A stretch of 64,000 nucleotides of DNA. It comes from Belliella alkalica (GTDB taxonomy: Bacteria; Bacteroidota; Bacteroidia; Cytophagales; Cyclobacteriaceae). Under the pieces are notes generated by a model, which saw only the letters and a program-made list of their open reading frames with translations, had not been told where the DNA came from and did no database searches. Positions within the stretch are counted from its first letter, which is position 1, and each line of letters starts with the position of its first letter. Shown in pieces: positions 51,541 through 58,373 of this stretch. The stretch spans positions 394,101-458,100 of the forward strand of contig NZ_JAKZGO010000001.1 of the NCBI RefSeq assembly GCF_022549785.1, written 5' to 3'. The translations under genes were made by a program, and so were the position numbers.

Positions 51541-53460
51541 ATGCTAAAACATAACTTGTTTAGATCTAAAATTATATTTTATTTTCTAGTATGCTTTTTA
51601 TGCTTTTGGTCGCCACAAGTAAATGCTTTTCAACATGATATACATAAAGTAAAAGCAGATAGCATTTTTAAAATTTATCAAAAAACAACTGATGATAGCA
51701 GTAGACTTTTGTTGCTATCAGAACTTGTTCATGAAATCCATTATTCTGATTCTGCTTTAAAATATTATGAAGAAGCCATTTTTTTATCAGACAAACTAAA
51801 CAATAAGGAGCTAAAAGCTCAAAACATGAACAGGCTTGGGGTATATTATAGAAATATGAATCTACAAGAAGAAGCTTTGAACATGTATGAATTAGCTTTA
51901 GAACTGAGCTTAGGATCTGGAGAGAAGATACAGATTGGACACTCTTATAACAACATTGGTCAAATGTATTTTTACAAAGATTATTATGATGAAGCTCTAG
52001 ACTATTATGAAGAAGCCGAGAGAATTTTTTTGAAAGTCGATGATCAAAATGGACTTGGATACAACTTAACAGGCATGAGTTTAGTCTTGAGTGAACTTGG
52101 AAGATATAGAGAGGCTTTGGAGAAAATCAATAAGGCAATTGAAATTAGAGAAATGCTTGGTCAAACAAGACAAGTAATGGTTTCAAAATTCAATAAAGCT
52201 GATATTTTGATGGATTTAGGTGCCTTTGAAGAAGCTGAAAATGACATCTTAAAGCTTTATGAATATGGTATAACCAATGATAAAATAAGGGCTATCAACG
52301 CTTTAGAAAAAATGGTTGAACTAAAAATCAAAACTGGAGACCAACAAGCAGCAATCAAATATGCAAATTTAGCTCATGACATTCATTTAGAAAAGCCATT
52401 TTCAGAATCCATGATTCATATTTACCAAATGATGAATCAAGTATATTTTAATCTAAATGATTTAGAAAATGCTCAAAAATATCAATCCTTGCTACAGGCA
52501 GAAAGAAATATTATAAAATCCGAGAGGACTAAAATCCAACTTGCTGGCTTGACAATCAAAAAACAAAAAGAAGAAATTGATTTTCTAAACAGGCAAAAGG
52601 ATCTCATAGAACAGAATGAGCAGTTTAAAATGTTTCTTTCTTATGGCTTAGTGATAACTCTTTTAATAATTACCATTGCATATTTGACTGTATACAGAGC
52701 CTTGCAAAGAGAAAAAATAAATTTAACCAAACTATCAGAACAGAATAAAAAAATAGAGATTCAATCTCAGGATCTAGAAAAGCTAAATAAAATGAAAGAT
52801 AAAATTTTTTCAATTTTGGCACATGATCTCAAAGGTCCACTTAATTCACTTAGCGGTCTTGTAAAACTTATTCAAGAAGACAACTTGACCAAAGAAGAAT
52901 TTATATCATATATACCAATCCTTGCAGAAAACTTAGGTAGCAATAATATATTGCTCGAAAACCTCCTTGTTTGGTCTAGAAGTCAAATGAATGGGCTTGA
53001 AGTGAACAATACAAGAATTGATATACAAAAGCTTGTACAAAAAAACATTGAATACTTGTATCATTCAGGTTACTACAAAGGTCAAATTATAATAAATGAT
53101 GTGGATTCTGATGCTTGGACTGTGGCTGATAAAAGTATGATTGAGATTGTAATTAGAAATTTGGTTTCAAATTCATTGAAATTCACAAAGCAAAATGATC
53201 AGATTATTATCAGCACATATTATCAAAATGATAAGGTTATAATTAAAGTAAGTGATGAAGGAATCGGTATAAAGAGAAAAAACCTTGATAGGTTGTTCGG
53301 TTCAGAATTTTTCAGCACGCTAGGTACACATCAGGAAAAAGGCACTGGTATAGGACTAATACTAACTAAAGAACTGATTAAAATCAATAAAGGTGAAATT
53401 TGGGTTGAAAGTGAATATGGTTCAGGAACTACCTTCTTTGTAGAGTTACCTAAGGCTTAG
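51541..53460 (+). CDS. TPR sensor histidine kinase
   Basis: 639 residues. Signal peptide 1-29. Six to seven tetratricopeptide repeats (residues about 75-320; AQNMNRLGVYYRNMNLQEEALNMYELAL) are periplasmic; one membrane helix at 363-386; a coiled linker; then the kinase. HisKA motif HDLKGPLNSLSGL with phospho-His428, N box NLVSNSLKF, G boxes DEGIGIKRK and GTGIGLILTKEL. No receiver or regulator gene follows. The adjacent trkH on the opposite strand overlaps its stop by 4 bases. Confidence 0.92.
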   Translation: MLKHNLFRSKIIFYFLVCFLCFWSPQVNAFQHDIHKVKADSIFKIYQKTTDDSSRLLLLSELVHEIHYSDSALKYYEEAIFLSDKLNNKELKAQNMNRLGVYYRNMNLQEEALNMYELALELSLGSGEKIQIGHSYNNIGQMYFYKDYYDEALDYYEEAERIFLKVDDQNGLGYNLTGMSLVLSELGRYREALEKINKAIEIREMLGQTRQVMVSKFNKADILMDLGAFEEAENDILKLYEYGITNDKIRAINALEKMVELKIKTGDQQAAIKYANLAHDIHLEKPFSESMIHIYQMMNQVYFNLNDLENAQKYQSLLQAERNIIKSERTKIQLAGLTIKKQKEEIDFLNRQKDLIEQNEQFKMFLSYGLVITLLIITIAYLTVYRALQREKINLTKLSEQNKKIEIQSQDLEKLNKMKDKIFSILAHDLKGPLNSLSGLVKLIQEDNLTKEEFISYIPILAENLGSNNILLENLLVWSRSQMNGLEVNNTRIDIQKLVQKNIEYLYHSGYYKGQIIINDVDSDAWTVADKSMIEIVIRNLVSNSLKFTKQNDQIIISTYYQNDKVIIKVSDEGIGIKRKNLDRLFGSEFFSTLGTHQEKGTGIGLILTKELIKINKGEIWVESEYGSGTTFFVELPKA

Positions 53461-54911: not shown

Positions 54912-56258
54912 TTAATGGAATAGTTTTTCTAAAGAATTCTTTGCTCCAGGAAGCGCAAAAACAATCACTTTATCATCTTTTTGCATGACAAAATCTCCAT
55001 CCGGAATAAAAACTTCCTCACCACGGATGACTCCTGCTACCATAGCACTTTCAGGAAAATGTAAGTCCTTTAGCGCTTTTCTTGTAATCCTGTAGTTTTT
55101 TGTAATTACATACTGAACAAATTCAGCATCCACCCCATAGATTCCCGAAACAGCTTCCACATTCCCTTTTCTTAAAAATCTAGTGATTTGGTTTGCCGCC
55201 ACAAGCTTTTTATTAATCAAAGAATCTACTCCAATACTATGAGAAATATGGATGTATTCCCTGGTATCCACATGGGCAATTGTCTTGTAAACACCATGAT
55301 TTTTAGCAGAAAGACTTGTAATTATATTTGTTTCTGAAGATTCTGTGACAGAAATAAACGCTTCCATTTGCTCCAAACCCTCTTCAATCAAAAGATCAAT
55401 ATTTTTATAGTCACCATTGATTACCAGCGTCTTATCAAGTCTTTCAGAAAGCCATTTACATCTTTCTTTGTCTTTATGAACAAGTGTCACCCTATAAAAA
55501 TCCTCAAGCTTCAAAGCTGTGGCATAGGCCATATCATCTCCTCCAATAATCATTACATTTTTGATTGTAACTTCTTTTTGGCCAAGAAGATCTAAGATCG
55601 ATTCTACAGCCTTTTTGTTGGAAATAAAAAATACATGGTCATTGTTTCTGATGATTGTATTTCCCCTGGGGATGATGGTCATTTGATCTCTTACTATCGC
55701 AATAATTTTGATATCCCTAAACAAAATGTTTTGGCTCATATCAGAAATCGCTTTGTTGACCAAGCTGCTATACTGATCTAGGGTGATCCCCACCACGTTC
55801 AACTTACCTTCTTCAAATTCAAAAACATCCGTAAATGAAGAGTTTTTGAGCATTCTCTTTATCTCTGAACTGCATAACATTGAAGGGGAAATAATATTGT
55901 CGATCCCAATGTTTTTGAAATATACATCATTCTCCGGATCCAAATAATCATGGTTTCGAACCCTTGCAATCACCCTTTTTGCACCAAGTTGTTTTGCCAA
56001 AACTGCAGTCACGATGTTTGACTTTTCTGAAGTTGTTACAGCCATGACCATCTCAGCGTCGTTGACACCGGCATTTTTCAATACTTCCAAAGAAGTGGAA
56101 TCTCCGACAATGGTAAGTACGTCCAAGTGTGAGGATACATTGTCCAAAACATCCTTGTCAGTATCGATCATGACAATGTCCTTGTTATCAAAACTCAATT
56201 GCTGTGCAAGATGGTACCCCATATCCCCTGCCCCTGCAATGACTATTTTCATTCCCAT
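54912..56258 (-). CDS. trkA: Trk potassium uptake regulatory protein
   Basis: 448 residues with two tandem RCK modules: a Rossmann fold at 1-130 (IVIAGAGDMGYHLAQQLS) and a second at 230-360 (VMIIGGDDMAYATALKL), each followed by a TrkA-C domain. The first GxGxxG-type loop binds NAD(H); the second reads GGDDMA and is degenerate, as in many Bacteroidota TrkA proteins. It gates TrkH. First gene of the trkA-trkH pair. Confidence 0.92.
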   Translation of the reverse strand: MGMKIVIAGAGDMGYHLAQQLSFDNKDIVMIDTDKDVLDNVSSHLDVLTIVGDSTSLEVLKNAGVNDAEMVMAVTTSEKSNIVTAVLAKQLGAKRVIARVRNHDYLDPENDVYFKNIGIDNIISPSMLCSSEIKRMLKNSSFTDVFEFEEGKLNVVGITLDQYSSLVNKAISDMSQNILFRDIKIIAIVRDQMTIIPRGNTIIRNNDHVFFISNKKAVESILDLLGQKEVTIKNVMIIGGDDMAYATALKLEDFYRVTLVHKDKERCKWLSERLDKTLVINGDYKNIDLLIEEGLEQMEAFISVTESSETNIITSLSAKNHGVYKTIAHVDTREYIHISHSIGVDSLINKKLVAANQITRFLRKGNVEAVSGIYGVDAEFVQYVITKNYRITRKALKDLHFPESAMVAGVIRGEEVFIPDGDFVMQKDDKVIVFALPGAKNSLEKLFH

Positions 56259-56389
56259 AAAGGTGAAATATCATTTGATTTGATCACAAATGTAATGACT
56301 TAGAATGAATTAATTGGGAGAAAGGGATTGGAAGATTGCAATATTTAAAAATTAAAGAAAAATTGCCTTTTGATTCATCTAGTCTAAAT

Positions 56390-56670
56390 CACCATCCCTA
56401 TTCATTAAAACCCTCTAAAACATGATATGATTCTTTCCTTTTGAATTGCATCATATATTTAGATTTGCTCCTGTGTTTAGATTTGGCCCTGTATTCAATT
56501 CCCTCCTGCTTTAGCTGGAGAAACATGATAGAATAATGTGCATTTCAGGCTTTAGCCAAAAATAAATCCCTAGATCCTTTCAAATTAGGATTGGTTAATT
56601 TCAGATTTGATCAAAAAAATTCGGCTAAAGCCTGAATAGAAACTCTAATCTTTTTTTGGATGGGCTAAAG
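56390..56670. repeat. Palindromic repeat unit A, transposase-associated
   Basis: A 281-bp unit starting CACCATCCCTATTCATT. Inside, CTCC...GGAG forms a hairpin around GCTTTAGC (56503-56520), and TTCAGGCTTTAGCC (56544-56557) pairs with GGCTAAAGCCTGAA (56623-56636) over a 65-bp interval. Near-identical to unit C and continuous with unit B. Confidence 0.85.
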
Positions 56671-56806
56671 CACCATCCCTATTCATAACAACCCTTTAAA
56701 ATATGATAAGATTCTTTCCTTTTGAATTGCATCATATATTTAGATTTGCTCCTGTGTTTAGATTTGGCCCTATATTCAATTGTCTCCTGCTTTAGCTGGA
56801 GGAAAT
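56671..56806. repeat. Palindromic repeat unit B, left half, before the transposase
   Basis: Starts directly after unit A with the same CACCATCCCTATTCAT. It follows units A and C to the first hairpin (ctgctttagctggagg), then the sequence switches to the 3' end of the transposase gene. A matching end (cggctaaaa) occurs at 57387-57395, past the transposase 5' end. Confidence 0.75.
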
Positions 56807-56814
56807 AAAAGGTT

Positions 56815-57267
56815 TTAATCATGAAATTTAGTAAACCCAAATTTATTGATGAATTCATCAAACTCTTCTTGATAAGTTTTCTTTTTATGGTGCTCTTCCT
56901 GTTTTTTTATATAGTTCCTTACTTTCTCAATCATAGATTCTGAAACTGAAACAGCAAAATATTCATCTTGCCACTCAAATTTTTTTCCACCCAAAGTAGG
57001 AACAATTATATCGTTTCTATTTATCCAAAATGATGATTCTCCCTTTATTAATTGCATTACTTTTTGAATATTTTGATCTACCCCCAAAGAAAACAAGCAA
57101 TGGCAATGGTCTGAATATCCATTTACAAAATCGATAAATATCCCTTTTTTCTTTGCATTCTCTTGAATATGGCTCCACACCATTTTCCTTATTTCTTTTG
57201 TTACAAGCTGAGGCTCTCTGTTTTTCGTGCTCCAAACAAAATGTATGTAAACTTTTATGTAAGACAT
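56815..57267 (-). CDS. REP-associated tyrosine transposase (IS200/IS605-like TnpA, RAYT)
   Basis: 150 residues, Y1 transposase. The start MSYIKVYIHFVWSTKNREP is typical; the HUH metal motif is H54-C-H56 (DHCHCLFSL), and the catalytic Tyr is Y119 (VRNYIKKQEEHH), with KGESSFWINRN and GGKKFEWQDEYFAVSVS between. These enzymes cut and join single-stranded DNA at hairpins. No TnpB or Q-pathway gene is present. It is surrounded by 280-bp palindromic repeats and embedded in one of them. Length is full, so it may be active. Confidence 0.92.
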   Translation of the reverse strand: MSYIKVYIHFVWSTKNREPQLVTKEIRKMVWSHIQENAKKKGIFIDFVNGYSDHCHCLFSLGVDQNIQKVMQLIKGESSFWINRNDIIVPTLGGKKFEWQDEYFAVSVSESMIEKVRNYIKKQEEHHKKKTYQEEFDEFINKFGFTKFHD

Positions 57268-57395
57268 AAATAAAAATTAAGGTTGAACGATTAAAACAAT
57301 TTTAAAATCAAAATTTACATTTAGTTTTTTTCGAATCCAAATTATTTTTGAAAGACTAAAATCCAAATTAGAATTTCTTTTAGTATCGGCTAAAA

Positions 57396-57680
57396 CACCA
57401 TCCCTATTCATTAAAACCCTCTAAAACATGATATGATTCTTTCCTTTTGAATTGCATCATATATGTAGATTTGCTCCTGTGTTTAGATTTGGCCCTGTAT
57501 TCAATTGCCTCCTGCTTTAGCTGGAGGAAAATGATAGAATAATATGCATTTCAGGCTTTAGCCAAATAATAAATGCCTAGATGTTTTCAAATTAGGATTG
57601 GTTAATTTCAGATTTGATCAAAAAAAGAATTCGGCTAAAGCCTGAATAGAAATTCTAACCTTTTTTTGGTTGGACTAAAG
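57396..57680. repeat. Palindromic repeat unit C, transposase-associated
   Basis: A 285-bp unit nearly identical to unit A with the same two palindromes (cctcctgctttagctggagg; caggctttagcc ... ggctaaagcctg). Bases 57681-57700 begin a further partial unit, ending beside the TPR gene. Confidence 0.85.
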
Positions 57681-57713
57681 TACCATCCCTATTCATTACC
57701 ATCCCCTATTCAA

Positions 57714-58373
57714 TTATTTACAAAATGAACTGAGGTATCTGTCAACAGATTTACTTCCCAATCTCCTTGCTGCATTCCAATCTTCACAGGCTTTTTCAGC
57801 ATTTTTGGCTTGATAATGACTTGTTCCTCTATTGGTCAAAATATCTGAGTTGTCGGGGCTCAGCTTCAAGGCATAATCATAATCAGAGATAGCTCTTTCA
57901 AATTTTTTAATTTTCAAATGACAATTGCCTCTATTGAAATGATAAGCCCAAACAATTGGAAAATCTTCACCATTAATTTTACTATAAGCTATTGCTGAAG
58001 AATAAGCTTTGATTGCCGCATCATATTGCTTTCTTTCTTGGTAAATATTTCCCAAATAATAGGCTAATTCATCATCTTCCTCAAATATTTCCATTGCTGA
58101 TTTCAGGGCTTCAATCAATTTATCTGTTTTTTGAGGGATATTCCTGATGGCATTATAATAATTGACATAGGCTGGGTGAAATGTTGGGTCTTTCTCTATC
58201 ACAGGTTCCAAAATTTTAGATGCCGTTTCATAATTTCCTTTTGAAATCATGTCTTGGGCTGTTTTTGCTATGACGATAGAATTATTTCTTTCTTCTGGAT
58301 CTACCTCATATACTTCTTGAGCTTGGATACCCAAAGCCTGAAAAAACAAAACTATTGCAATTACATATTTCAT
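57714..58373 (-). CDS. Exported TPR protein
   Basis: 219 residues with a signal peptide (1-18, ...FFQALGIQA). Tetratricopeptide repeats run from residue 35 (MISKGNYETASKILEPVIEKDPTFHPAYVNYYNAI, DDELAYYLGNIYQERKQYDAAIKAYSSAI, NRGNCHLKIKKFERAISDYDYALKLSPDNS). The repeats end with CEDWNAARRLGSKSVDRYLSSFCK. The scaffold is likely periplasmic; partners are unknown. Upstream of it on minus is rmuC, 41 bp away, possibly one transcript. Confidence 0.86.
   Translation of the reverse strand: MKYVIAIVLFFQALGIQAQEVYEVDPEERNNSIVIAKTAQDMISKGNYETASKILEPVIEKDPTFHPAYVNYYNAIRNIPQKTDKLIEALKSAMEIFEEDDELAYYLGNIYQERKQYDAAIKAYSSAIAYSKINGEDFPIVWAYHFNRGNCHLKIKKFERAISDYDYALKLSPDNSDILTNRGTSHYQAKNAEKACEDWNAARRLGSKSVDRYLSSFCK

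Follow-up and report, generated by a model that had tools for sequence, protein, structure and literature searches.

A probable REPtron-like locus with a subclass 1.2-type TnpA-Y1 transposase and tagged, inverted hairpins in Belliella alkalica

We analyzed an array between trkA and a TPR gene in a 64,000-nucleotide stretch of Belliella alkalica DNA (the window). The locus is best explained as a REPtron-like system run by a TnpA-Y1 transposase of subclass 1.2, whose signals would be AT[TA]G-tagged hairpins together with a second palindrome, gamma. From the sequence comparisons described below, we give this reading a chance of roughly three in four. The repeats have a recurring anatomy, accompany the gene in its relatives, are dispersed in several genomes, and show covariation in their stems.

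The trkA gene (54912-56258, minus strand) and the TPR gene (57714-58373, minus strand) bracket three related repeat units, whose direct repeats start at 56359, 56640, and 57365 (spacings of 281 and 725). Unit C was 94% identical to the 282-bp unit A across positions 1-281, and the left 134 bp of unit B were 93% identical to unit A. A first-pass annotation had called A and C almost identical; they are similar, with a difference of 6%. Palindrome arms were located at 56544-56560/56620-56636 and 57550-57567/57629-57646. Unit B is split by the gene of a 150-aa Y1 transposase (56815-57267, minus strand); the end on one side of the gene is of the alpha type (56776-56801), and that on the other side is of the beta type (57385-57409). 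The proposal that the transposase lies inside a repeat unit was therefore borne out, as these are the two end types that bound the empty units. The unit phase proposed with it, starting at CACCATCCC, cuts through a hairpin.

Unit A (56495-56685, plus strand) is REPIN-like, with alpha-gamma on the plus strand, beta-gamma on the minus strand, and the tags facing outward. Repeat model R1 matched its arms at 56495-56560 (plus strand, 58.8 bits) and 56620-56685 (minus strand, 39.5 bits). The alpha hairpin of unit A, CTCCTGCTTTAGCTGGAG (56503-56520, plus strand), has a T-T mismatch in its stem, and its tag is ATTC, departing from AT[TA]G. The gamma arm, GGCTTTAGCC, lies at 56544-56560 (plus strand), and the gamma' arm at 56620-56636 (minus strand) reads GGCTAAAGCC on the plus strand. 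The beta hairpin with its tag, AATAG-GGATGGTGCTTTAGCCCATCC on the minus strand (56658-56685), had a fold of -5.9 kcal/mol. Unit C (57501-57695, plus strand) is likewise REPIN-like, with alpha-gamma on the plus strand and beta-gamma on the minus strand; its arms matched R1 at 57501-57566 (plus strand, 70.1 bits) and 57630-57695 (minus strand, 31.6 bits). Its alpha hairpin (57509-57526, plus strand) carries the tag ATTG, and its beta hairpin is a weak fold (-1.8 kcal/mol). The T-T mismatch is present in both window alpha stems (56503-56520 and 57509-57526), at a position unpaired in 11 of 46 aligned units, and recalls the bulge described for E. coli REPs (PMC8266576).

Around the transposase gene, both kinds of end were found, but only one of them still folds. 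A tagged alpha hairpin without gamma (56776-56801, plus strand) stands directly 3' of the gene and belongs to an R1 match at 56776-56835 (44.8 bits). On the 5' side, the beta end at 57385-57409 (minus strand) retains the tag and half of the stem and forms no hairpin (0.0 kcal/mol); it is broken likewise in a sister species (G002). The sequence at the left edge of the array, before unit A, also contains half a beta end, consisting of the tag ATAG and half a stem (56390-56405, minus strand).

The recurring piece is a bipartite hairpin of about 65 nt, composed of a tag (usually AT[TA]G), an imperfect stem of about 8 bp with a TTYA loop, a stretch of about 25 nt, and GGCTTTAGCC. Alpha and the related beta are the tagged hairpins, and gamma is the small palindrome about 25 nt after them. 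Two bipartite hairpins in inverted orientation, tags outward, form the REPIN-like unit, which is about 190 bp long here and about 135 bp in several named relatives. The palindromes seen in the first pass are real and are the conserved parts, with shorter copies found elsewhere. We extracted 54 units from gamma'-bearing loci with a hairpin next to gamma, so that high pairing and an invariant gamma are partly due to selection, whereas neither tag nor loop entered the selection. At the foot of the hairpin, the 4-mer was ATTG in 39, ATAG in 10, and another sequence in 5, with no GTAG or GTGG; the loop was TTTA or TTCA in 48 of the 54.

For covariation, alignment A2 combined 44 of these units with 2 window units, after near-duplicates and poorly registered rows were excluded (L102, L109, L113, L114, L132, L133 (mis-registered), L152, L166, L168, and L171). 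Changes on both sides of the stem occurred at all eight alpha pairs, with 51 such cells against 10.4 in shuffles. Coevolution between enzyme and stem was weak (Mantel r 0.33, reached by 3 of 2,000 permutations, with shared ancestry kept in), and alpha classes showed no sharp split by enzyme clade. At one locus (L183 in G126, C29), a single region mixes hairpins of different families with a long run of AGGAACGTTCTACC-like repeats.

The first-pass annotation regarded the 280-bp units as non-autonomous derivatives and proposed counting their copies. Scoring 40 of 49 candidates in the 4.95-Mb genome revealed no further full 280-bp unit, and the only match to unit A off the array was a 65-bp piece with 78% identity on a different contig. 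Among 59 genomes including this one (best 12 candidates each), a full-length relative was found only in G002, at the same locus; the copies seen dispersed are of the bipartite hairpin of about 65 nt. Weak matches in other genomes covered mostly unit positions 101-185, and a few covered 82-132 or 224-282 (best 12 candidates per genome). The G002 array is larger: one side holds two full units plus a partial unit, and the other holds four pieces covering unit positions 103-282 with a 263-bp period. In G002, units on opposite sides of the gene have the REPIN core in common and not the spacer, and we therefore read the 280-bp period as REPIN plus spacer duplicated locally in tandem. Occupancy of the trkA-TPR locus differs between members of the genus: G001 carries a degenerate unit remnant without the gene, G003, G004, and G007 carry no unit of any sort, and G005 and G006 have a different neighbour gene.

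On comparing silent divergence from G002, the transposase had a dS of 0.039 (150 codons, few silent changes), while trkH, trkA, TPR, and rmuC had values of 0.91, 0.84, 0.47, and 0.34, respectively; values of 0.19 and 0.23 were obtained for the next two genes. The transposase value is far below those of all six neighbours with a usable dS (0.19-0.91), as would fit a segment that was exchanged recently or whose silent sites are unusually constrained. As to the recent spread suggested in the first pass, units A and C differ by 6%, against which stands this low transposase dS. A histidine kinase gene (51541-53460) was too diverged for a dS value. Its protein is 74% identical to that of G002, compared with 96-99% for trkH, trkA, and rmuC and 92% for TPR, and this gene is likely a local replacement.

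The transposase protein matched Pfam Y1_Tnp (E 3.8e-28) and carries the motifs DHCH, WQ, and YIKKQEEHH. In the TnpA-Y1 survey of Quentin et al. (2018), subclass 1.2 is described by an HUH motif of the DH[IV]H type, WQ, Y---Q--HH, a length of about 148 aa, low copy number, and occurrence in Bacteroidetes (PMC6006769). The window protein agrees in HUH type, WQ, Y---Q--HH, length (150 aa), low copy number, and Bacteroidota host, and was assigned to the subclass by these features; the third HUH residue is C where subclass 1.2 has I or V. Y---Q--HH was present in all 28 homologs read out of 33 fetched loci (L040, L052, L059, L060, and L062 were left out). We further examined a set of named loci, the best 80 of 535 confirmed clade loci, among which L156 and L105, at least, coincide with the loci of G046 and G123. 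These were found with two protein patterns, one containing WQ, so that WQ is no independent test there; Y---Q--HH was present in 79 of the 80. The first pass spoke of a REP/RAYT array; a canonical RAYT with a GTAG REP (class 2 REPtron) was rejected: the class 2 motif Y---NP was found in 0 of 80 named loci and a GTAG or GTGG tag in 0 of 54 units.

An AlphaFold model of the protein (pLDDT 89.5) was closest to the ISDra2 and IS608 transposases, with the REP-bound structure 4er8 at rank 30. The NCBIfam model for IS200/IS605 scored above its cut-off (64 vs 55), and REP_Tyr_transpos scored below (34 vs 80). The transposase is present as a single copy in its own genome, where the nearest relatives are 36-38% identical. 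Three more transposases of subclass 1.2 type occur in this genome (L006, C10:48765; L007, C95:19945; L008, C1:81429), and the flanks of each hold repeated hairpins of its own. Across 291 genomes of the order, the clade transposase (E 1e-35 or better) was found in 39. Three clade transposases (L094, L106, and L157) are apparently broken genes, each interrupted by a stop codon within the matched part.

The same two ends, in the same order, on the empty units and the transposase unit, a Y1 fold nearest to ISDra2 and IS608, and the IS200/IS605 name given by NCBIfam would all be expected of an IS200-type insertion sequence that is autonomous and has given rise to MITE-like derivatives of 280 bp, which is how the first-pass annotation viewed the element. 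However, 37 of the 39 carriers have one transposase match and the other two have two, unlike a typical multi-copy insertion sequence, and several near-identical whole elements were found neither in the own genome nor in the 39 carriers. Full 280-bp units were confined to the array locus here and in G002 (best 12 candidates per genome), the beta end adjoining the gene is broken, and WQ and Y---Q--HH stand in place of the W[TS] and Y[IV]ENQ given for IS200 (PMC6006769). We consider this explanation unlikely, and it was rejected as the main reading because of the low copy number of the gene and the absence of units elsewhere.

Of the same 291 genomes, 18 had the alpha pattern (at most one mismatch), and the reversed pattern gave no match. 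Fifteen of the 18 have the clade transposase (Fisher p 3e-12, uncorrected for ancestry), and 24 of the 39 carriers were without the pattern. G123 contained 255 copies, 110 on the plus and 145 on the minus strand, with none in the reversed-pattern control. In G027, G046, G192, G279, and G285, every copy listed adjoins the gene, so the pattern in these genomes reflects flanking repeats and not dispersal.

With model R1, 12 matches (E 0.01 or better) were found in six places of the own genome, with five of the 12 matches in the array; the other sites appear intergenic, as judged by eye. Among 40 hand-chosen genomes, at least three R1 matches were present in all 16 with the gene and in 8 of 24 without a close transposase (G001, G003, G007, G008, G086, G208, G234, and G264), a comparison (Fisher 1e-5, uncorrected for ancestry) whose counts are lower bounds from the best 133 candidates and whose three-match threshold was set after the counts were known. 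All 31 named carriers had R1 matches, with lower bounds of 3-113 each (best 150), where one match per carrier is expected since most of the units from which R1 was derived flank these genes. Pairing among the best 150 matches comprised 15 facing pairs at 69-80 bp, 6 diverging pairs at 93-278 bp, and 2 same-strand pairs about 200 bp apart. The dispersed copies are bipartite hairpins of about 65 nt, single or in inverted pairs. An array of alpha-gamma-gamma'-beta' units was also observed in G007 (L070, C14:326434-328716), where a search at E 0.001 gave no relative of the window transposase. The search for an empty-site pair for a single dispersed REP gave none; the site followed (G002 C14) is common to C11 of the own genome, and the G002 C8 sites are common to own C24, as judged by eye.

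The apparently intergenic position of the dispersed copies would also be expected if the hairpins were transcription terminators or RNA elements gathered near the gene by chance and the array a plain tandem duplication, and such duplication does occur, with a period of 281 bp here and 263 bp on one side in G002. We found no Rfam match, and no terminator-like site in the array, which is weak evidence given 0.6 expected by chance. This explanation accounts neither for the tag and its outward orientation nor for the constant placement past the stop codon, and we regard it as quite improbable.

Hairpins beside the gene were examined in the 80 named loci. In 71 of them, strong hairpins lay no farther than 500 bp from the gene. 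Hairpin density was 4.3/kb over the 250 bp that follow the gene, 1.85/kb over the 250 bp that precede it, and 0.19/kb at 2 kb or more. In 61 of 80 loci, the start of GGCTAAAGCC fell between -6 and +23 nt relative to the stop codon end, as opposed to 0 of 2,504 background windows, and in 46 of these 61 it stood 3-6 nt past the stop codon. A tagged hairpin was found within 150 nt downstream in 51 of 80 loci (background, 18 of 2,504), at 31-44 nt past the stop codon in 38 of the 51, with the tag outward only in 44 and inward only in 7. Upstream, 20 of the 80 loci had tagged hairpins (15 outward, 4 inward, and 1 both).

Of the 28 homologs read, 21 are subclass 1.2 genes outside the close clade; 18 of these have a hairpin within 400 bp, at a density of 2.8/kb vs 0.55/kb far off, and a 14-mer is common to both flanks in 14 (controls, 0 of 21). 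In the clade set, a shared 14-mer was found in 39 of 74 loci vs 1 in the far control, where loci with short far flanks were scored negative. The idea that the repeats belong to another transposase and that subclass 1.2 genes insert into REP arrays already present, for which the eight of 24 chosen genomes with at least three R1 matches and no close transposase could speak, is scarcely credible in view of the near-constant position past the stop codon (GGCTAAAGCC in 46 of 61, tagged hairpin in 38 of 51) and of the own flank repeats of 14 of the 21 genes beyond the clade, which random landing would not lead one to expect.

In a REPtron-like system, the subclass 1.2 enzyme would bind, cleave, and move the repeats, as suggested by the anatomy, the fold, and reports on REP and IS608 enzymes (PMC8266576). 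Most likely, the hairpin is bound by the enzyme as a folded single strand, the tag directly 5' of the stem would serve as guide, and Tyr119 would nick the DNA. Under the guide rule reported for REPs (PMC8266576), ATTG would be predicted to select CA, and ATAG to select CT or CA. The repeats would be moved in trans, and the transposase gene itself would remain low copy inside one inverted pair.

More broadly, subclass 1.2 could represent a separate REP-spreading lineage across Bacteroidota that turned into a REPtron separately from class 2 and has a distinct repeat grammar of AT[TA]G tag, TTYA-loop hairpin, and GGCTTTAGCC as second palindrome; to us the odds of this wider proposal seem about even. 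The published classification places subclass 1.2 apart, as a group with neither the properties of insertion sequences nor REPs. If subclass 1.2 genes do run a REP system, a gap in the published classification would close, many intergenic hairpins of Bacteroidota would gain an origin, and the change from an insertion-sequence transposase to a REP-maintaining enzyme could be followed in a lineage near IS200. The gene occurs together with 30-113 R1 matches in several named strains, the 113 being those of the non-pathogenic Adhaeribacter soli.

Among known systems, IS200/IS605 elements (subclass 1.1; IS608 and ISDra2) share with this one the fold, the HUH motif, the catalytic Tyr, and hairpin ends that have a guide on the 5' side of the stem (PMC8266576). 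They differ in that here the gene is not multi-copy in the carriers searched and the repeats occur gene-free. Class 2 REPtrons of E. coli, Stenotrophomonas, and Marinomonas resemble the locus in a low-copy Y1 gene with tagged hairpins that are also dispersed, and differ in the GT[AG]G tag and Y---NP, as opposed to mostly AT[TA]G and a bipartite repeat with GGCTTTAGCC here. As to inverted hairpins on both sides of the gene with tags outward, one end is broken in the window, and outward-only tags were found downstream in 44 and upstream in 15 of the 80 named loci. Dispersed REPs together with a low-copy gene, as in a REPtron, were found in several genomes. Pseudomonas REPINs reportedly consist of inverted pairs of short hairpins as a unit. 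Two inverted REPs recur as a unit here as well (the window pairs and the 15 facing pairs among the best 150 matches), with a different enzyme class, a different tag, and an extra inner palindrome pair. The beta-type hairpin of clade loci, AATAG-GAATGGGCTTTAGCCCATTC, is closely resembled by the H. influenzae REP GTAGGGTGGGCTTYAGCCCACC (PMC2817692).

The closest comparison is with subclass 1.2 itself. The survey describes this group as closely related to IS200 transposases and generally without the typical terminal IS200 secondary structures, and its Table 1 enters 'no' for REPs (PMC6006769). As described there, its automatic REP search used a GTAG or GTGG tag, which would miss AT[TA]G-tagged hairpins, and some classes were also inspected by eye (PMC6006769). 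Among the matches listed in the open-access PMC literature, there was no report linking subclass 1.2 to REPs. The present system is like subclass 1.2 of the survey in length, WQ, Y---Q--HH, HUH type, low copy number, and Bacteroidota hosts, and unlike it in that the group was published without REPs (PMC6006769), whereas most of the loci examined here are flanked by hairpins. The comparison suggests a REP-spreading role for a group recorded as REP-free.
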